A DNA stretch of 35,363 nt, taken from positions 1 through 35,363 of the forward strand of contig JAHJJU010000042.1 in the NCBI GenBank assembly GCA_018822805.1, written 5' to 3'. A model generated the notes under the pieces. It was given only the letters and a program-made list of their open reading frames with translations. It was not told the origin of the DNA and did no database searches. The position numbers and the translations under genes were made by a program. This DNA comes from a bacterium (lineage in GTDB: Bacteria; Campylobacterota; Campylobacteria; Campylobacterales; Sulfurovaceae). Of this stretch, positions 25,780 through 34,134 are shown piece by piece; positions within the stretch are counted from its first letter, which is position 1, and every line of letters starts with the position of its first letter.

Positions 25780-26022
25780 TTAAGCCTCTTTCTCTTTAAC
25801 ATACTCCAAAATCTCTTCAAGATGCAGTTCTCTGTCTCCATCTTCATCGATCTCTTTACATTGACACAACTCACATGCTGACCCGGCATCGAGCTCTTCC
25901 ATTAGTGCTTCTATACTGTTATGTCCTGCTTTTACAGCTTCAAGTAATGACGCTAACGTGACATCATAACACTCACATACGGTATGGTCTAAATCAAATT
26001 TTTCAAACTCTTCTATTGTCAT
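25780..26022 (-). CDS. BFD-like [2Fe-2S]-binding protein
   Basis: An 80-residue protein of the BFD/NifU-middle-domain type. C16 and C18 in VCECYDVT and C50 and C53 in SACELC match the CxC...CxxC cluster ligands; an extra C55 follows. The helical VTLASLLEAVKAGHNSIEALMEEL core, in pattern, is typical. Such proteins act as bacterioferritin-associated ferredoxins or electron donors; the long acidic C-terminal tail is unusual. The partner is unknown, as no ferritin gene is adjacent. It is divergent from the DUF2059-like gene. Confidence 0.85.
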   Translation of the reverse strand: MTIEEFEKFDLDHTVCECYDVTLASLLEAVKAGHNSIEALMEELDAGSACELCQCKEIDEDGDRELHLEEILEYVKEKEA

Positions 26023-26147: not shown

Positions 26148-26894
26148 ATGTTTAAATTATTTGCGTTAACAGTACTTTCTCTAAATTTACTTTTTGCTGC
26201 AACTTCTGAACAAGTAGATCAATATATGAGTCTTTCTCATTCAGATAGAGCACTTATCGAAGTAGAACAGATGTTCGAAAATTTGAGTCAATCCATGGAA
26301 ACTTTAGACAATAACCGATCAGATCAAATAACCCTTTCCTATGAAATGTATATTGGAAAACACATTAGTGAAGATGAAATGGAAGAGCTTTTAGCCATCT
26401 ATAGAAAGCCTGTGATGCAACGCTATGTCGTTGAAATGGATACTATAGAGATTCCAAAAGAAGAGATGGAAGAGTTTCTACGCACACTTAAAGAGAACCC
26501 TCTCTCTACTGAACGAATGGATATCATCAATAACATTGTTGAGAACATCATTAATGAAGAGACCATGCTTAGCTTTTATAAAAGTATGATGCAACGGTAT
26601 ATTCCCAAAGAAGATAACAGCAATAAAGAGACAAACTCTAGCACAACAAAAGAACTCGATCTCCAAGAAAAACAATTTATTGAGATGATGAAAGAAGCTA
26701 CTAAAAAAGAGCTCCTCTATGGAACCCAAGTTTTAAGTATGGAAGAGATGAGAGAAATCAACGATATTTCTAAATCAAGTCTTATGACTAAAGTTATGAA
26801 AGTAGAGAATGAAGCCGTCATAGAAATCGTGGACAACTTCATTAAACTCATTATCTCAGAACCTAAATCTTTAGAAATTCTCTCTAAGGATTAA
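26148..26894 (+). CDS. Exported helical protein, DUF2059-like
   Basis: A 248-residue periplasmic protein with a signal peptide (about 1-18, ending LLFAA). The mature chain is almost all alpha-helix and acidic. Two stretches resemble each other and the DUF2059 pattern of helix plus LSxEEMxEL: HISEDEMEELLAIYRKPVMQRYV (split here as ISEDEMEELL and RKPVMQRY, about 74-94) and VLSMEEMREIND with SLMTKVMKVE (about 199-222). A Ser/Thr/Asn-rich linker (about 155-168) separates them. Family assignment is tentative and function unknown. Its stop codon overlaps that of gdhA, convergent, by 3 bases. Confidence 0.7.
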   Translation: MFKLFALTVLSLNLLFAATSEQVDQYMSLSHSDRALIEVEQMFENLSQSMETLDNNRSDQITLSYEMYIGKHISEDEMEELLAIYRKPVMQRYVVEMDTIEIPKEEMEEFLRTLKENPLSTERMDIINNIVENIINEETMLSFYKSMMQRYIPKEDNSNKETNSSTTKELDLQEKQFIEMMKEATKKELLYGTQVLSMEEMREINDISKSSLMTKVMKVENEAVIEIVDNFIKLIISEPKSLEILSKD

Positions 26895-28252
26895 ACCGAT
26901 CCCTGATCAATCATGGAGTCAGCAACTTTTCGAAACCCTGCGATGTTGGCTCCTGTTACCAAATCTCCTTCACAGTCAAACTCTACTGAGGTATCGTACG
27001 CCGTATGAAAAATATTACGCATAATTTGACGTAACTTTATGTCCACCTCTTCAAAACTCCATTGTTCCATGCTGGCATTTTGACTCATCTCCAATTGTGA
27101 AGTTGCAACACCACCGGCATTGGCTGCTTTTCCCGGAGAAAATAAAATATCACTCTTACGTATAAACTCCAACGCCTCAGCAGTGGTTGGCATGTTTGCA
27201 CCTTCATTGATAAGTATACATCCATTCTCCATCAATTTCATTGCGTCGATAAGCGTCAATTCATTTTGTGTTGCTGAAGGAAAAGCAATATCACAAGGAA
27301 TGTGCCATACAGCATGACCATTTTCAGGGTAATGACTTACCGGAGTATAGACACAATCCCGATGTAAAGATGCATAAGACTCTAACGATTCATGATTGAT
27401 CTCCTTAACAGCTTTTAATGATGCCATGTCAATACCTTTTTCATGATAGATGGTTCCCTTACTATCACTACAAGTTACAGGTAAAGCTCCAAACTCATAG
27501 AGCTTCTCCATGGTATAAATAGCAACATTTCCTGAACCCGAAACCGTACAGATTTTCCCTTTTAAATCTTTGTTGTACACACTCAAAAAATTCTCAGCAA
27601 AATAGACTGAACCATAACCTGTTGCTTGTGGTCTAACACGTGAACCACCCCAATTTAACCCTTTTCCTGTTAAGACTCCATCAAATTCACCGGTTAATTT
27701 TTTATATTGTCCAAACAAATAGCCGATTTCTCGTGCACCTACCCCAATATCACCTGCTGGGACATCCTTGTTTTTACCGATATACTTGTTGAGTTCAGAC
27801 ATAAATGCTTGACAAAATCGCATAATTTCATTATCAGATTTTCCTTTGGGATCAAAATTAGACCCCCCTTTAGCTCCACCAATCTGAAGACCTGTTAATG
27901 CATTTTTAAAAATCTGCTCAAAACCTAAAAACTTAATAATTCCCAAATTGACCGAAGGGTGAAAACGTAACCCACCTTTATAAGGTCCAATAGCTGAATT
28001 AAACTGTACTCGATACCCGAAATTGGTCTGTATTTTACCGGTATCATCGACCCAATTTACTCGAAAGATAATGCTGCGTTCAGGAACAACAATACGTTCT
28101 AAAATATTATAATCAAAATATCGACTGTCTTCATTTAATAAAGGCAAAAGTGAATAGAGTACCTCATGACTTGCTTGATAAAATTCATCTTGTCCGGGGC
28201 TACACTGTTTTATAAAATTTAGTATCTCCTCTATTTTTTGACTTGCTGGCAT
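26891..28252 (-). CDS. gdhA: NADP-specific glutamate dehydrogenase
   Basis: GdhA reductively aminates 2-oxoglutarate with ammonium to glutamate. 453 residues is the standard hexameric bacterial length. GPYKGGLRFHPSVN and GGAKGGSNFDPKGKSD carry the conserved substrate and catalytic lysines; GSGNVAIYTMEKL is the Rossmann dinucleotide loop; NAGGVATSQLEMSQN is conserved. It follows the NIT hybrid kinase gene on the same strand after 51 bases, which contain a possible TGATAAAAT -10 and an AAGGA ribosome binding site, so it may have its own promoter and also receive read-through. The context links a putative nitrogen-oxyanion sensor to ammonium assimilation. Confidence 0.97.
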   Translation of the reverse strand: MPASQKIEEILNFIKQCSPGQDEFYQASHEVLYSLLPLLNEDSRYFDYNILERIVVPERSIIFRVNWVDDTGKIQTNFGYRVQFNSAIGPYKGGLRFHPSVNLGIIKFLGFEQIFKNALTGLQIGGAKGGSNFDPKGKSDNEIMRFCQAFMSELNKYIGKNKDVPAGDIGVGAREIGYLFGQYKKLTGEFDGVLTGKGLNWGGSRVRPQATGYGSVYFAENFLSVYNKDLKGKICTVSGSGNVAIYTMEKLYEFGALPVTCSDSKGTIYHEKGIDMASLKAVKEINHESLESYASLHRDCVYTPVSHYPENGHAVWHIPCDIAFPSATQNELTLIDAMKLMENGCILINEGANMPTTAEALEFIRKSDILFSPGKAANAGGVATSQLEMSQNASMEQWSFEEVDIKLRQIMRNIFHTAYDTSVEFDCEGDLVTGANIAGFRKVADSMIDQGSV

Positions 28253-28303: not shown

Positions 28304-31282
28304 TTAGGCTTGTTTTAATCGTGCTTCAAGTTCATCTACATCGGTAGATATTTTTAACGTATCACAATACTCTTTATATCGTTCTTCTTCAGTAAACGCT
28401 AAAGGTATTGCACCATTCTTTTTTATAAGATCCACAATAAAATCGTCACGATTAACAGTACTTAACGGTTTAGCATCAAAAAGTGCAAAAGTATACTTCT
28501 TATGATGAATCTGTTCTCTAAATTCACGTTCTGAATGATACATGTCCACTTTATAACCTAAGTTATTTAAAATTGCCAAATAGATTTTACCGGTTAAAAC
28601 TGTCTCTTTATAGAGCAATATACTTTGTTTCTCTTCCTCTTTTTTCATTGTTTTAACCACAAAATATTCACGTAGTATGTTTTTTAACTCTTCGGTTTGT
28701 ATTGGTTTCCCAAGATATCTGTCCATACCCACTTCCATATATTTATCTTTATCACTTTTATGTGTATTTGCCGTTAATGCAACAATAGGGGTATGTTTTA
28801 AGTTTCGACTCTTTTCATAAGCAATGATTTTTTGACTTGCTTCCATTCCCGACATTATAGGCATTTCAATATCCATAAAAATAATATCATATTGCTGTTC
28901 TTTAAAAAATTCAAAAGCCACTTTACCGTTGTTGGCAAAGGTAACTTCAACCTCTAAATTTTTCAAAATATTAAACATTAATTTTTGATTGATCACATTA
29001 TCTTCGGCAACCAAAACATTCATATTGGTGAAAATTGTGACATCACTCTCTTTTTCTCGAATCGTCTGTGTTGTAGTGGCAAGTTCGAGTGCTTTCATTG
29101 TTTTAGAAAAATTCAATGGCTTGTAGATAACTTTATCGATTCTATTTTTATTAAAACATGAACAATTTTGTATATCTGCTGTTGTAATCATGACTATTTT
29201 AGTGTTGAGTCTTAAAAAAATATCCAATAACTCTTCGTTTTTAATGTATCGATGATTTATAAATAAAATATCAGGAAGTAGTGCCTTTTCAACTTCAAAA
29301 ATTTCTGATTCGTTATAAATCTTTAAATTGGCTCCCGTATATGCCAAATAGGCTTTAAAATTTGCATCAATTTCTTTATATGTATGGCTCTTATCATTAA
29401 TAATGTACCCAATATTTAAACGATGATAATTTGGTTTAATACGTGGTAGAGCTTTAAGAGAACGTTTTAAATCAAGAGTAAAGAAAAAAGTACTCCCCTC
29501 TCCAATTTTACTCTTAACAGCCAACTTTCCCCCCATCAGTTCAACAAATTTACTTGAAATTGTTAACCCCAATCCTGTTCCACCAAACTTTCGGTTGGTA
29601 CTGGCATCTGCTTGAGAGAAGGCATCAAATACTTTATCAATTTTCTCTTCCGGAATACCAATACCGGAATCTTTTACAGAAAATTTAATACCAATCGTTT
29701 GAGAACCTTCATTCACTTTTTCTATTAAGACATTTACCTGTCCATTTTCATCAGTAAACTTAATGGCATTACTTAAAAGGTTCAAAATAACTTGTGCTAT
29801 TTTAGTTGGATCCCCCATAATTTCTGTCGGTAATTCAGGATCAATAAAAAGCCCCAATTCAATCTCTTTTTGAGCAGCTTTTGCCGTATAGGAGTCAATA
29901 CTTGCTTCAAATTTATCAAGAATATTAAATGAGATATTTTCAAATTCAATGTTGCCTGAAGCCACTTTAGAGAAATCTAAAATATCATTCACAATATTTA
30001 TAAGACTGTTTGAACTCTCTTCAATAATAGAGACAAATTCTAATTGGTCTTCTTCAAGATTGGTCTCTTTCAAAATCTTTGTAAAGCCAATAATACCATT
30101 TAGAGGGGTACGTATTTCATGAGACATGTTCGCTAGAAAATAATCTTTTGCCATACCGGGTTCTTTAATGGCATTTGCCAAAAACTTATAGATTTCGATC
30201 GTATCATTTTTTCTAAGCACTTCATGAATCTCTAATTTCTGTTTATCGTTCAGATCAGCTTCAATATCTTTAAGTGTCTCACTTAGAAATTGACTGTTTT
30301 TATTGATATTGTGCAGCATATAAAAAAGCATTCCAAAAAACAAAGCCAAAAGTACAACAACCGTACTGAATTTCGAAACTTCATCTTCTAAAAGAGTAAC
30401 CTCACTTGTTAATGAAGATTTAATATGTGTATAAAGAATGTTCTGTGCAACATTCACCTGATCAATCTTACTCGCTGAAATATTCAACCAACTCTCAATT
30501 GGAAGCGTATATGCCCCATCCAACGCATGGTTAAAAACCTCTGCCCGTTCATCATTTTTTATACTCGGAAAATGTAGAGGATTAATAGCGATATAAAGTT
30601 TAGCAAGCATTAACGTATTGTCCAGTTTGTCAAAACTTGGACTGATATCATTTTTAACAAAATTCTCCCATAACAATAACTCTACATATTGCATCTTTTT
30701 TGAACTGCTTAAGATAAAAGCGATAAAACTTGTCTCCATGTTAAGATTCTCTTTAATAGATATCAACTCTTTAAAAGAGGTCAATTCTCGTTTATAGGCT
30801 AACGGTACATCTTTACTAAGATGTTCAATATTTTTACTAAGAGGTTTAATAACTCGATTTTGATAATTTCCAAAAAGAATCTCAGTATAATTAATATTCC
30901 CTTTATCAACTTTTAACCGAATATCCTCTAACTTACTTAATATCTCTTCTAAATTTTTTTTCTCTATTAAAAAATTTGAATTCTCAACAAGCATTTGAAT
31001 GGTTGCATCTATCTCTTGATTAACTGTTTTTCGAGTTCTTTTCAGTTCATCAAGTATTTTTTCTTTATGATTCCCTAAATAGATAGCACTATGTATTTTT
31101 TCATCTTCAATTTTATTTAAAATAGCATCTATTTTTTCAATTAAAATAATTTGATTCAGTCTCTTTTCTTTCTCGTTAAATAAAGCATAAGAAAAGAAGA
31201 GTTGATAACTGAAAACCAGCATCATTAACAGTGTTGATATAAGAAAAAGAAGAGTAATTCTTTTATTATTTAATACTTTCAT
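28304..31282 (-). CDS. NIT-domain membrane hybrid sensor histidine kinase
   Basis: A 992-residue hybrid kinase. TM1 (about 10-33) and TM2 (about 305-325) bracket a helical periplasmic domain (about 35-300). That domain has the NIT pattern: KIEDEKIHSAIYLGNHKE with RTRKTVNQEID in its first half and KENLNMETSFIAFIL at the start of its second. NIT domains are known nitrate/nitrite sensors. No clear HAMP follows, only a helical linker. HisKA has H388 in [12 protein letters not shown]; the HATPase has NLLSNAIKF, DSGIGI and GGTGLGL. A receiver-like segment (about 620-735) lacks the phospho-acceptor Asp; a true receiver (about 753-870) has D804; a third receiver-like tail (about 885-990) keeps LFD but not the acidic pair. 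No HPt is present, so an external phosphotransfer protein is expected. Last sensor gene of a four-gene operon. Confidence 0.92.
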   Translation of the reverse strand: MKVLNNKRITLLFLISTLLMMLVFSYQLFFSYALFNEKEKRLNQIILIEKIDAILNKIEDEKIHSAIYLGNHKEKILDELKRTRKTVNQEIDATIQMLVENSNFLIEKKNLEEILSKLEDIRLKVDKGNINYTEILFGNYQNRVIKPLSKNIEHLSKDVPLAYKRELTSFKELISIKENLNMETSFIAFILSSSKKMQYVELLLWENFVKNDISPSFDKLDNTLMLAKLYIAINPLHFPSIKNDERAEVFNHALDGAYTLPIESWLNISASKIDQVNVAQNILYTHIKSSLTSEVTLLEDEVSKFSTVVVLLALFFGMLFYMLHNINKNSQFLSETLKDIEADLNDKQKLEIHEVLRKNDTIEIYKFLANAIKEPGMAKDYFLANMSHEIRTPLNGIIGFTKILKETNLEEDQLEFVSIIEESSNSLINIVNDILDFSKVASGNIEFENISFNILDKFEASIDSYTAKAAQKEIELGLFIDPELPTEIMGDPTKIAQVILNLLSNAIKFTDENGQVNVLIEKVNEGSQTIGIKFSVKDSGIGIPEEKIDKVFDAFSQADASTNRKFGGTGLGLTISSKFVELMGGKLAVKSKIGEGSTFFFTLDLKRSLKALPRIKPNYHRLNIGYIINDKSHTYKEIDANFKAYLAYTGANLKIYNESEIFEVEKALLPDILFINHRYIKNEELLDIFLRLNTKIVMITTADIQNCSCFNKNRIDKVIYKPLNFSKTMKALELATTTQTIREKESDVTIFTNMNVLVAEDNVINQKLMFNILKNLEVEVTFANNGKVAFEFFKEQQYDIIFMDIEMPIMSGMEASQKIIAYEKSRNLKHTPIVALTANTHKSDKDKYMEVGMDRYLGKPIQTEELKNILREYFVVKTMKKEEEKQSILLYKETVLTGKIYLAILNNLGYKVDMYHSEREFREQIHHKKYTFALFDAKPLSTVNRDDFIVDLIKKNGAIPLAFTEEERYKEYCDTLKISTDVDELEARLKQA

Positions 31283-31293
31283 TTTAATCCTCT

Positions 31294-32052
31294 TTATTGA
31301 TTCTTTTTATGATAAAGCTCTATATTGTCCATGCTATTCTTAAAGCTCTCTACAAAAACTTCTAAAAGGTTAGGCACAGAACAGTCATCCGATTGATAAA
31401 TAAACTCCTTATATGTTGTCCAGTACTCATTCATTTTTTCTCGTTCGTTTAACAATGGAGTAGGATACGCATAATTATTTATAGCATATAAAATATTCTC
31501 TATCTTGACAATAGAATTTTTGATCTGATTGGCATTACTCATTTTATTAAGGTTCATCGCTGAAGCAATATAATATTTTGTAATTCGCTCAAAAAGATAA
31601 TCCAACTCTTTCAAAGACATGAGCATCTTCTCTTCATTTGAAAAATTATATTGATGTAAATGTTCAATAGAATTTGCTGCTTCCACAAACGTTTCACTGT
31701 AGTCCAATATAAGTATGCTTTTATCTTTATTTACCTTTTCTTTCAGAAGTGCTTTAATCTCTTGATTGGTATAGCGAAGAAAATTCAAAAGATCTTTACT
31801 TTCTGTACTTTGTGTATTGATGGCTATAGTATTGATTTCTCTTTCTAACTGCTTTAAACTCTCTTCAAGTTGATTTCTCAGCGTTCTTTTTTCAGGGTTT
31901 TGATACAAAAAAAGATAATCTTTTGAAATTTTTTGACTTAGATATCGAATATTTTCTGAAGCCTCGATAATCTGAACATCGCTTCTTGTTGAGGCTTCAC
32001 TGCTCAAGACTAAAGCTAAGCTCATAGCGATTACAAATACTATTTTTTTCAT
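31294..32052 (-). CDS. Exported tandem P-box-like helical protein, degenerate third paralogue
   Basis: A 252-residue predicted periplasmic protein with a signal peptide (about 1-20, SSEA end). It parallels the two preceding genes in length, helical content and the position of two PilJ/NarX-like motifs, but the motifs have decayed: EASENIRYLSQKISKDYLFL at about 30-49 and KELDYLFERITKYYIASAMN at about 148-167. The GxQRM core is lost in both, while the flanking SQK/ISKDY and ITKYYIA are kept. It lies 11 bases before the NIT kinase gene. It may bind another ligand, or act as an adaptor without binding; both are inference. Confidence 0.82.
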   Translation of the reverse strand: MKKIVFVIAMSLALVLSSEASTRSDVQIIEASENIRYLSQKISKDYLFLYQNPEKRTLRNQLEESLKQLEREINTIAINTQSTESKDLLNFLRYTNQEIKALLKEKVNKDKSILILDYSETFVEAANSIEHLHQYNFSNEEKMLMSLKELDYLFERITKYYIASAMNLNKMSNANQIKNSIVKIENILYAINNYAYPTPLLNEREKMNEYWTTYKEFIYQSDDCSVPNLLEVFVESFKNSMDNIELYHKKNQ

Positions 32053-32061
32053 AATAAACTC

Positions 32062-32871
32062 TTATTTATAAATGGAAATATAAAGTGTGGTTACTTCATC
32101 CATCTTTTGTGTTATTTTATCGGTTGTATCAAATACTATAAGAGGTAAACCTCCTTTTTCAATATTGTTATAAAATTTATGAACAATTTTCCAAAGCTTA
32201 TTAATCTCATTCAATTTTTTTGTAATCACGGGTGTATTGATTTTATTTTTTAACAAAAAATTCAAATTTTCTTGAAAACTTTTAACCGTTTTCTTCATAC
32301 TGCTAATGGTATTTTGATCTTTAATTCCCGACTGATAGGCAATATAATATTTAGCAATTCTTTGAGAGAACATTCGTTGTATAGCTGCTCTTTCAATGGT
32401 CTTAGAGGAGTCAAATTTTAGAGATGCATTAAGAGAATCAACCACATATTGACTCCCCTCCAGCATCGATTCACTTAAATCCAAAATTAATTGAGCATTA
32501 TCAAGATTAAACGGCTTAGTTGAAGTCTCTTTAAACTCATTTGAACTCAATTCTACAAACTCTAAAAGATTTCGAATTTCAGGATCAGAAATGGATTTAA
32601 CCAGTATTTTATGTGATTTAAAAAACTTCTCCAAAGAGACTTTTAACTGTTGCTTCGTTTTTGTCAAGGCAATATTTTTACCTACATAAAGATAATCTTT
32701 TGCGATACGTTGTGACAACATACGTTGTTGTCCGGCAATGTTAATAAGTTTTATTTTTTCACTATCAACTTTACTGCCCTTCTCCTCCACTGTTTTGGCA
32801 CTTAAAGGATTTGAAAACAACACAACAGATGTGACTACGATACTTATATATTTAATTAATTTATACTTCAT
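32062..32871 (-). CDS. Exported PilJ/NarX-type sensor-domain protein with two P-box motifs (second paralogue)
   Basis: A 269-residue predicted periplasmic protein with a signal peptide (about 1-25, LSAKT region). Two helical PilJ-like modules: motif 1 INIAGQQRMLSQRIAKDYLY at about 43-62 and motif 2 RAAIQRMFSQRIAKYYIAYQ at about 161-180. Motif 1 closely resembles the NarX/NarQ P-box (INxAGxxRMxSxR), whose arginines contact nitrate. Motif 2 has lost the Gly. No transmembrane helix other than the signal, and no kinase, HAMP or methyl-accepting domain is attached. Gaps of 9 bases on either side show operon membership. Confidence 0.87.
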   Translation of the reverse strand: MKYKLIKYISIVVTSVVLFSNPLSAKTVEEKGSKVDSEKIKLINIAGQQRMLSQRIAKDYLYVGKNIALTKTKQQLKVSLEKFFKSHKILVKSISDPEIRNLLEFVELSSNEFKETSTKPFNLDNAQLILDLSESMLEGSQYVVDSLNASLKFDSSKTIERAAIQRMFSQRIAKYYIAYQSGIKDQNTISSMKKTVKSFQENLNFLLKNKINTPVITKKLNEINKLWKIVHKFYNNIEKGGLPLIVFDTTDKITQKMDEVTTLYISIYK

Positions 32872-32880
32872 CTTCTTCTC

Positions 32881-33639
32881 CTATTGATTTTTAATATTTA
32901 CATAATAATTGGTTGTTTTATTCATGTTTTCTAAAATATCATTCGATTTTTTATAAATTAAAGTGGGAATAAAACTGCTTGAAGATTTATTCATCATTTC
33001 AAAAAATGTAAAGGATTGCTCAACACTCAATAAAAGTGCCGTAATCTCTTTTGTATTTAATTTTGATGCTTTTAATGTCTCTAAGGAAGTTTTAAAAAGT
33101 GCCATACTTTGCTCCATCTTCTCTTCATTTTTAGGATTCTCAATTCCCCAAGCTTTCAACATGTATAAACTTGCCATACGTTGTGAAAGCATTCGTTGAC
33201 GCCCGGACATATCAATAATCTCTCCCGATACTTCTCCCGTCTCTTTAGCAAAAAGGTGTGTGGTATCGTCAGAAGCTTTAAGCAGTAACTCTAAATCATC
33301 TTGAAGTTTAGAAACATATTTTTTAGAAGGTTTCAATAGAAGGGTTTTTTTAATAGAGATCCAAAGTTTTTTAACTTTTGTTGTACTTTGTACAATTTCT
33401 TTATTTTTTGTAAAATGATGTAATGCATCCAGATGATCTTCAAATTCATGCATAATGCTTTCCAAGTCTTTATCGGGTTGAGCAAAACTGTTTCCCATAC
33501 CAATCATGACATAATCTTTTAACATACGTTGCGTATACATACGTTGTTTCCCGGCAACATCTACAGCATGCTTTAAACTTTGTATTTCAATTGAAAAAGA
33601 AAATGTATAAAATAAGAATAAAAGAAGCAGATATCTCAT
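32881..33639 (-). CDS. Exported PilJ/NarX-type sensor-domain protein with two intact P-box motifs (first paralogue)
   Basis: A 252-residue predicted periplasmic protein with a short signal sequence (about 1-16). Two complete motifs: DVAGKQRMYTQRMLKDYVMI at 27-46 and DMSGRQRMLSQRMASLYMLK at 143-162, each heading a helical module of about 110 residues. This is the pattern of PilJ-type and NarX-type ligand domains, which normally are fused to chemoreceptors or kinases. Here it is a free-standing secreted protein. R33 and R38, and R149 and R154, would be the oxyanion contacts by analogy. It is the first full gene of the operon leading to the NIT kinase. An AGAGG ribosome binding site precedes the ATG. 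Confidence 0.88.
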   Translation of the reverse strand: MRYLLLLFLFYTFSFSIEIQSLKHAVDVAGKQRMYTQRMLKDYVMIGMGNSFAQPDKDLESIMHEFEDHLDALHHFTKNKEIVQSTTKVKKLWISIKKTLLLKPSKKYVSKLQDDLELLLKASDDTTHLFAKETGEVSGEIIDMSGRQRMLSQRMASLYMLKAWGIENPKNEEKMEQSMALFKTSLETLKASKLNTKEITALLLSVEQSFTFFEMMNKSSSSFIPTLIYKKSNDILENMNKTTNYYVNIKNQ

Positions 33640-33641
33640 GA

Positions 33642-33716
33642 TTAACCTCTTCTATTCTTCATAGCTGTTAAGCTAATATAATTGTAAGATTGAACTAATA
33701 ATATTTGACCGTGCAT
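33642..33716 (-). CDS. Possible 24-residue leader peptide ahead of the P-box operon
   Basis: A short frame starts with an ATG at 33716 behind an AAGGA ribosome binding site and ends with TAA at 33642, two bases before the start of the first P-box gene. The peptide HGQILLVQSYNYISLTAMKN and four more residues has no family. It lies just downstream of the TATAAT at 33742-33747. It could be a translational coupler or chance. Confidence 0.25.
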   Translation of the reverse strand: MHGQILLVQSYNYISLTAMKNRRG

Positions 33717-34134
33717 AATATATCCTTATTTAAGTAAATATATTATAAAACATAAATCTGACTACTATAGGTATTTACAAAAAGTAAGAGATGAGAATTT
33801 TTGGGAGGATTGGGTGATCTTCATGATTAGAGGAGTTGAAGAAACTGCACGAGAAACGATTGAATTGATTGTCAGGATTAAAGAATTAATGCTTGACTAC
33901 AAACACCGACTTCGTGCCAATTACAAATTTTACAGTCAGGATTTACTTAATAACTTGTTTAAGCACCCTTACACAAAGATTGAATTTGTTGTAAATGATA
34001 TTGGCGTGTCAAGATTGACTGCAGCAAATTACTTAAATAAATTATCAGATGATAATATGCTGAGAAAAGATAAGTTGGGGACAGGAAATTATTACATAAA
34101 TGAAGCATTATTTGACTTATTGACAAAGAGATGA
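33709..34134 (+). pseudogene. 3-prime remnant of a Fic-family gene
   Basis: An open frame from about 33709 (after a TGA at 33706-33708) to the TGA at 34134. It reads YLSKYIIKHKSDYYRYLQ, then VRDENFWEDWVIFMIRGVEE, and ends with FKHPYTKIEFVVNDIGVSRL followed by TAANYLNKL and TGNYYINEALFDLL. This is the C-terminal third of Fic proteins of the class with a terminal winged-helix domain. The catalytic HPFxxGNGR core is absent, so no AMPylation activity can remain. A 106-residue frame from the GTG at 33814 could still yield a small DNA-binding-like protein. The 5-prime part was probably lost by deletion next to the sensor operon. Confidence 0.8.
33742..33747 (-). promoter_or_regulatory. -10 element for the P-box/NIT sensor operon
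   Basis: A perfect TATAAT on the minus strand about 100 bases before the first P-box gene. No good -35 at 17 bases is visible. It falls inside the antisense strand of the Fic remnant. Confidence 0.4.

Follow-up and report, generated by a model that had tools for sequence, protein, structure and literature searches.

Why should a hybrid histidine kinase that has a periplasmic sensor of its own be encoded together with three exported proteins that look like detached sensors? The question is raised by four genes on the reverse strand of contig JAHJJU010000042.1 (GenBank assembly GCA_018822805.1, family Sulfurovaceae), a stretch of 35,363 nucleotides that was analysed as a whole and is called the window below. 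We refer to the exported proteins as P1, P2 and P3, in the order of their genes, with the kinase gene following that of P3. On balance we favor the answer that the four proteins form a nitrate phosphorelay with detached receptors, in which P1 and P2 would be the receptors, P3 an adaptor and the sensor of the kinase a docking platform.

Gene products, predicted fold and anion sites

The P1 gene (32881..33639, reverse strand) encodes an exported double P-box protein of 252 aa, a predicted nitrate receptor of the NIT fold, and the P2 gene (32062..32871, reverse strand) encodes an exported double P-box protein of 269 aa that is predicted to be a second receptor. The P3 gene (31294..32052, reverse strand) encodes an exported protein of 252 aa in which the first box is altered and the second erased, and which we propose as the adaptor to the kinase sensor. 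The hybrid histidine kinase gene (28304..31282, reverse strand; 992 aa) combines a NIT-type periplasmic sensor with HisKA, HATPase_c and REC domains. According to the list of open reading frames (ORFs) of the window, the intergenic gaps are 9 bases between P1 and P2, 9 between P2 and P3, and 11 between P3 and the kinase. P1, P2 and P3 have a single, N-terminal hydrophobic segment each, and no lipobox was found in these three proteins of the window. The kinase has two membrane segments (residues 11–29 and 305–323), which flank a periplasmic region of about 275 residues. An earlier note on this DNA, made from its letters alone, had described three exported helical proteins with these gaps ahead of a NIT-domain hybrid kinase and had seen no output domain in them; ORFs, hydrophobic segments and Pfam agree with the first statement, and Pfam likewise finds no output domain in P1–P3.

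The PilJ profile (PF13675) matches P1 (3.3e-19) and P2 (2.3e-16) in two stretches each and above the Pfam cut-off, and it gives a single match of 1.3e-4 in P3, where 22.4 bits fall below the cut-off of 26.6; despite this sub-threshold score P3 is clearly homologous to P2. The kinase passes the NIT profile (PF08376) with 29.7 bits against a cut-off of 24.9. The same profile stays below its cut-off in several operon relatives of the window kinase, and the window kinase itself was missed by the initial PF08376 scan of genomes and detected by hmmscan. The assignment to PilJ and NIT families made in the earlier note is thus borne out by profiles for P1, P2 and the kinase, with P3 lying just under the PilJ cut-off.

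AlphaFold models were made of P1 and of the kinase sensor as single chains. The P1 model (22 sequences; mean predicted local distance difference test, pLDDT, 92; predicted template modeling score, pTM, 0.88) has eight helices after the signal, arranged as two four-helix bundles, and its best match is the NIT domain of NasR, which aligns with the whole chain (Z 19.0, root-mean-square deviation 3.4, 233 residues; the next match has Z 11.8). McpN (6gcv) matches one half of the P1 model (Z 11.3) and is also the top PDB match by profile (6.7e-6). For the kinase sensor (30371..31192, reverse strand; residues ~31–304; pLDDT 90.7, pTM 0.80) the NIT domain of NasR again comes first (Z 23.4, 268 residues; next 14.1). 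Helical bundles can reach Z values of up to about 13 that are possibly unspecific, and only the NasR matches were used; the Foldseek E-values alone were not significant, and NasR was set apart only by re-alignment of the Foldseek candidates. When single P1 sequences and the sensors of NIT kinases without P proteins (P-less NIT kinases) were searched against PDB sequences with phmmer, no relative was found, so that the link to NIT rests on the fold search. P2 and P3 are homologous to P1 over their whole length. A protein with two P-boxes is thus probably a NIT-fold module that stands by itself; the products of all four genes probably share one fold, as expected for P2 and P3 from their homology to P1.

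NarQ holds nitrate between two arginines, with the anion stacked on a glycine, and these residues make up the G-x-x-R motif (PMC8199190). Nitrate is contacted through this motif in NarQ, in McpN and to some extent in NasR (PMC8199190, PMC6381276), whose two arginines lie within a single chain and form an asymmetric site with one glycine replaced (PMC8199190). The subset of PilJ domains that binds nitrate has been described by the N-box pattern [IVL][ND]xAGxQRML[ST]Q (PMC6381276). In the window, as aligned across the homologues, both boxes of P1, AVDVAGKQRMYTQ (33529..33567, reverse strand; residues 25–37) and IIDMSGRQRMLSQ (33181..33219, reverse strand; residues 141–153), contain G-x-x-R and are one position off the N-box; among P1 proteins, box 1 has Tyr or Phe at the position of the N-box Leu. 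The first box of P2, LINIAGQQRMLSQ (32710..32748, reverse strand), contains G-x-x-R and matches the published McpN N-box pattern exactly (PMC6381276), and the second, TIERAAIQRMFSQ (32362..32400, reverse strand), retains the Arg and has Ala for Gly in the window genome. P3 has neither G-x-x-R nor an exact N-box: its box 1, IIEASENIRYLSQ (31933..31971, reverse strand), has Glu for Gly and retains the Arg, yet this non-canonical box, EASENIRYLSQK, is strongly conserved within the P3 family (A1 invariants E30, A31, E33, I35 and Q40). The two P-boxes or remnants that the earlier note had seen in each protein hence hold for P1, with two intact boxes, and for P2, with one intact box and one Gly-to-Ala change, while P3 carries a remnant only in the sense of the nitrate motif.

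The same distinction is seen across the homologues. Both boxes have G-x-x-R in 44 of 50 homologues of P1; among the 47 of P2 it is found in box 1 in 36, in box 2 in 31 and in both in 29, and no homologue of P3 has the pair. The exact N-box pattern occurs in 13/54 P1, 34/47 P2 and 0/47 P3 proteins. Judged by its sequence, P3 cannot be a canonical nitrate receptor. In P-less NIT kinases both NIT arginines are present in 13 of 14 cases, compared with 5 of 49 operon kinases, a strong contrast that reflects few events, since the two groups form separate clades and the Arg state needs 3 changes on the tree, so that the 49 are not independent cases. The NIT boxes of P-less kinases from the same genus read KERG and LERD, and their arginines would be nitrate ligands; the window kinase has K62 and T184 in place of the pair, where the columns were equated with the NasR arginines by motif alignment, not by residue-level structural overlay. 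That P1 shares the fold of the kinase sensor, and that most operon kinases have lost the arginines that P1 and P2 keep, speaks for the idea of detached receptors put forward in the earlier note, although P3 does not fit its version in which all the exported modules bind the ligand. Together these findings suggest that the sensing function has been transferred from the kinase to distinct partner proteins. We also asked whether P2 and P3 have lost Arg together, which could indicate a shared site, and dropped the idea: joint loss is true of the clade L072–L079, but L020, L022 and L147 have lost the Arg only in P3.

Conservation of the gene set

The window genome behaves as a Sulfurovum, its closest matches being Sulfurovum assemblies, many of which encode relatives of P1 with about 60% identity and in each case with the order P1-P2-P3-kinase intact. 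A P3 profile found matches, a few of them weak, in 19 of 397 Campylobacterota genomes and in 8 of 68 genera. Each of the 48 P3 genes, which come from two overlapping genome collections and do not all represent different species, has the gene of a NIT-type membrane protein directly behind it, at a distance of −29 to 55 bp. The conserved co-occurrence that the earlier note had proposed to look for is thus found, and it is well supported that the coupling of P proteins to a NIT sensor is not due to chance. The genes flanking the operon vary from genus to genus, and such differing flanks around a constant set indicate that the set itself is inherited.

In most loci the fourth protein is a hybrid kinase. 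In L020 it is a NIT domain with membrane segments and no kinase, the L022 and L147 versions end in a weak ATPase-like match, and that of L148 has no recognised output domain. As the output is variable and the NIT sensor constant, the P proteins appear to go with the NIT sensor and not with a particular output. P1 varies from 0 to 3 copies per locus, with tandem duplicates in L014, L018, L019 and L023, and L018 contains the entire set twice. A FIST-domain histidine kinase, possibly part of a split kinase, is encoded directly before P1 in L020 (L020:312-2291). The operon kinases of L065, L066, L067 and L068 are short of about half of the NIT sensor, that is one four-helix bundle, and two loci have, immediately behind the kinase and in the opposite orientation, a degenerate P1-like gene with lost boxes (L070:4188-4997, L071:11232-11627). 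Genes resembling glnB, amtB and a porin adjoin the operon in L072, L076 and L077, where it has only three genes, and a cluster resembling sox sulfur-oxidation genes adjoins a P3-kinase pair without P1 and P2 in L137 (L137:1-11594); both resemblances were judged by the sequence start only.

The components of the operon evolve at different rates. In 24 operons the mean pairwise identity is 0.58 for P1, 0.59 for P2, 0.45 for P3, 0.26 for the NIT sensor of the kinase and 0.65 for the kinase core. The sensor changes fastest, which is unexpected for a domain that recognises a fixed ligand. Evolutionary distances are in closest agreement between P1 and P2 and between P3 and the NIT sensor, and when the other components are held constant the partial correlations are 0.66 for P1-P2, 0.39 for P3-sensor and 0.38 for P3-kinase core. 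We regard this pattern of co-variation as suggestive only.

The promoter of the operon is presumed to lie in the region between P1 and the divergent gene (33640..33813, reverse strand). Promoter and terminator scans of this upstream region gave matches no better than those in shuffled sequences, and we claim no promoter. Beyond it, a 106-aa ORF (33814–34134) matches SoFic-like Fic proteins in their C-terminal winged-helix part only and resembles a fragment of a Fic gene. A functional link to the flanking glutamate dehydrogenase gene (26891–28252) was considered and dropped, as the flanks differ in every genus examined. Further along, at 25780–26022, lies a gene for an 80-aa BFD-like [2Fe-2S] protein that is related to a segment of NirB and has a close relative in L088.

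The proposed phosphorelay and its alternatives

We suggest that P1 and P2 occur as soluble proteins of the NIT fold in the periplasm, with two P-box four-helix bundles per chain, and that their G-x-x-R motifs would hold nitrate or a similar oxyanion between them. As a relative that has lost the nitrate motif, P3 would be the adaptor and would attach to the NIT-fold sensor of the kinase, which is anchored in the membrane. This sensor, mostly without an arginine pair of its own, would act as the docking platform. A ligand-driven change in the P1/P2/P3 assembly would then alter the kinase, and the REC domain of the kinase would hand the phosphate to an unlinked partner. Such a division of labour, with P1 and P2 as receptors and P3 as adaptor, seems to fit the sequences better than three equivalent receptors. 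Nitrate is most likely the ligand because the boxes of P1 and P2 are retained and the window genome encodes NapA.

A number of observations weigh against this proposal. Nitrate was not bound by the NIT domain of PA4520 or by the PilJ domains of PilJ (PMC6381276), and the operon has no linked nitrate gene. The arginine contrast between kinases goes back to few changes on the tree, and five related operons still have the arginine pair in the kinase. The correlation of P3 with the sensor exceeds those of P1 and P2 with the sensor in only 80% of subsamples. In the three-gene form P2-P3-kinase (L072–L079) P1 is absent and the arginines are lost in P2 and P3, which means that this form must sense something else or nothing. 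Finally, L137 and L142 miss P1 or P2, showing that P3 and the kinase can stand alone.

The receptors could also be detached as we propose but recognise a ligand other than nitrate: a different small anion, for example nitrite or sulfite, or an as yet unknown compound. We see this as the most serious alternative, though clearly the less probable reading. Nitrite and sulfite are further ligands of NarX and NarQ, and nitrate binding is absent from some PilJ and NIT domains (PMC6381276). The Tyr or Phe at the N-box Leu in box 1 of P1 and the small number of P1 proteins with an exact N-box (13/54) could likewise point to a different compound, as could the amtB/glnB-like neighbors of the arginine-less three-gene form and the sox-like neighbors of the P3-kinase pair in L137. 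On the other hand, the G-x-x-R contacts are strongly retained in P1 and P2, and NapA is present in the genome.

The P proteins could also repress a kinase that does its own sensing, or modulate it in the manner of a chaperone, as CpxP does for CpxA, with boxes that are structural only. Accessory periplasmic proteins are able to repress or activate kinases (PMC8534201, PMC12691602), and kinases of the operon clade occur with P3 alone (L137, L142). We nevertheless find this unlikely, since a purely structural role would not keep both Gly and Arg at both P1 boxes, and since it is the kinase sensor that is least conserved (0.26) and mostly without NIT arginines, whereas P1 and P2 retain theirs.

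It is more doubtful still that the P proteins capture periplasmic nitrate for a reductase or transport and are merely co-expressed with the kinase. The presence of NapA, and the free-standing PilJ proteins without kinase neighbors that are common in the genus, would suit such a role, but P3 is always found beside a NIT-type protein and co-varies with that sensor domain, and the neighborhoods compared have no reductase or transporter gene in common. Local duplication of a sensor domain without functional interplay, of which the frequent tandem copies of P1 are reminiscent, is the least credible explanation, as conservation already counts against it and genera that differ in the flanking genes still have the order P1-P2-P3-NIT, each position with its own box signature.

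Known systems, related modules and significance

The operon has P-boxes with G-x-x-R and four-helix bundles in common with NarX/NarQ and McpN. In these proteins the domain is part of a membrane receptor and the site lies at a homodimer interface, whereas P1 has two bundles in a single soluble exported chain without output. Nor is the kinase of the NarX/NarQ type, in which the P-box is fused to a HisKA_3-type kinase: here the P-boxes are separate, and the kinase has HisKA and REC. In P1 as in the kinase sensor, the predicted fold of the whole chain matches that of NasR, a NIT-ANTAR antiterminator, and of NIT kinases. NasR and P-less NIT kinases have the module fused to an output, whereas the operon has three free-standing copies and a fused copy mostly without the arginines.

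The receptors TorT and LuxP have a fold of the binding-protein type. In TorT/TorS and LuxP/LuxQ, as proposed here, a soluble periplasmic receptor serves a hybrid kinase with a separate sensor domain (PMC8534201); the operon likewise encodes exported candidate receptors together with the kinase, and the TorS sensor turns up in the fold lists of the P1 and kinase sensor models. However, these systems have one receptor with a fold unlike that of the kinase sensor, while the operon has several paralogues of the sensor's own fold. QseG is an exported accessory protein that binds and activates QseE, a kinase with a four-helix sensor (PMC12691602), but it is an outer-membrane lipoprotein without P-box, whereas P1–P3 of the window have no lipobox. 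Stand-alone proteins of sensor type also control kinases in CvnF/CvnA and NreA/NreB. CvnA kinases of Streptomyces often carry NIT domains (PMC13343842), and NreA of Staphylococcus is a soluble nitrate receptor (PMC8199190). CvnF and NreA are GAF proteins, and CvnF acts on cytoplasmic domains and accompanies CvnA kinases without NIT; P1–P3, in contrast, are exported and accompany a NIT sensor. Our search of the open-access literature brought up no description of P-box or NIT modules as detached periplasmic receptors for kinases. Soluble periplasmic receptors for hybrid kinases are already known, and the operon differs in that its candidate receptors have the predicted fold of the kinase sensor itself.

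Free-standing PilJ modules are not confined to the operon. In 34 genomes of the genus each listed PilJ match lies within a frame of at most 626 aa, and the frames inspected contain between two and four PilJ repeats and lack an output domain. All PilJ matches of the window genome (contigs C107, C40 and C78; L010, L011, L012) are in frames of at most 306 aa, and none therefore appears to be fused to a signalling output. As free-standing double or quadruple PilJ proteins without a kinase neighbor are common in the genus, detachment is not special to the operon; the tie to the NIT sensor is. One group of exported proteins of about 557 aa (L080:6787-8460 and relatives in L082, L083, L085, L086, L088 and L098) has four PilJ repeats, near-perfect nitrate N-boxes in all four repeats of many copies, no output domain and no adjoining NIT kinase. 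In two genomes from outside the Campylobacterota, PilJ also occurs in frames of 520–715 aa, long enough for fused receptors, and in one frame of 288 aa. P1-like exported double P-box proteins are found in Gammaproteobacteria right beside REC-CheW-MCP-CheA (Pil-Chp-like) clusters (L026:1877-10702, L184:240-9638, L180:8070-17983), and in L183, also from Gammaproteobacteria, near a NarX-like kinase and a response regulator. The free-standing module may thus serve more than one kind of receptor. We tentatively speculate that NIT/P-box modules are general, exchangeable soluble receptors, with P1/P2 hetero-assemblies that would bind nitrate and plug via dedicated adaptors into different membrane signalling proteins, either a hybrid kinase whose fused copy would have become a blind docking platform or the chemoreceptor-CheA clusters of Gammaproteobacteria.

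If the detached-receptor phosphorelay exists as proposed, it would be a nitrate sensor taken apart, with binding residing in soluble paralogues and the fused copy in the kinase left as a docking platform. The intact, half, altered and erased sites would offer a natural series for studying how a partner protein switches a helical-bundle kinase. Many stand-alone "PilJ domain" proteins that are now annotated after a chemoreceptor would be given a role. NarX/NarL-type regulators are reported not to be conserved in Campylobacterota (PMC6682613), and the operon would provide a candidate nitrate input for this phylum.

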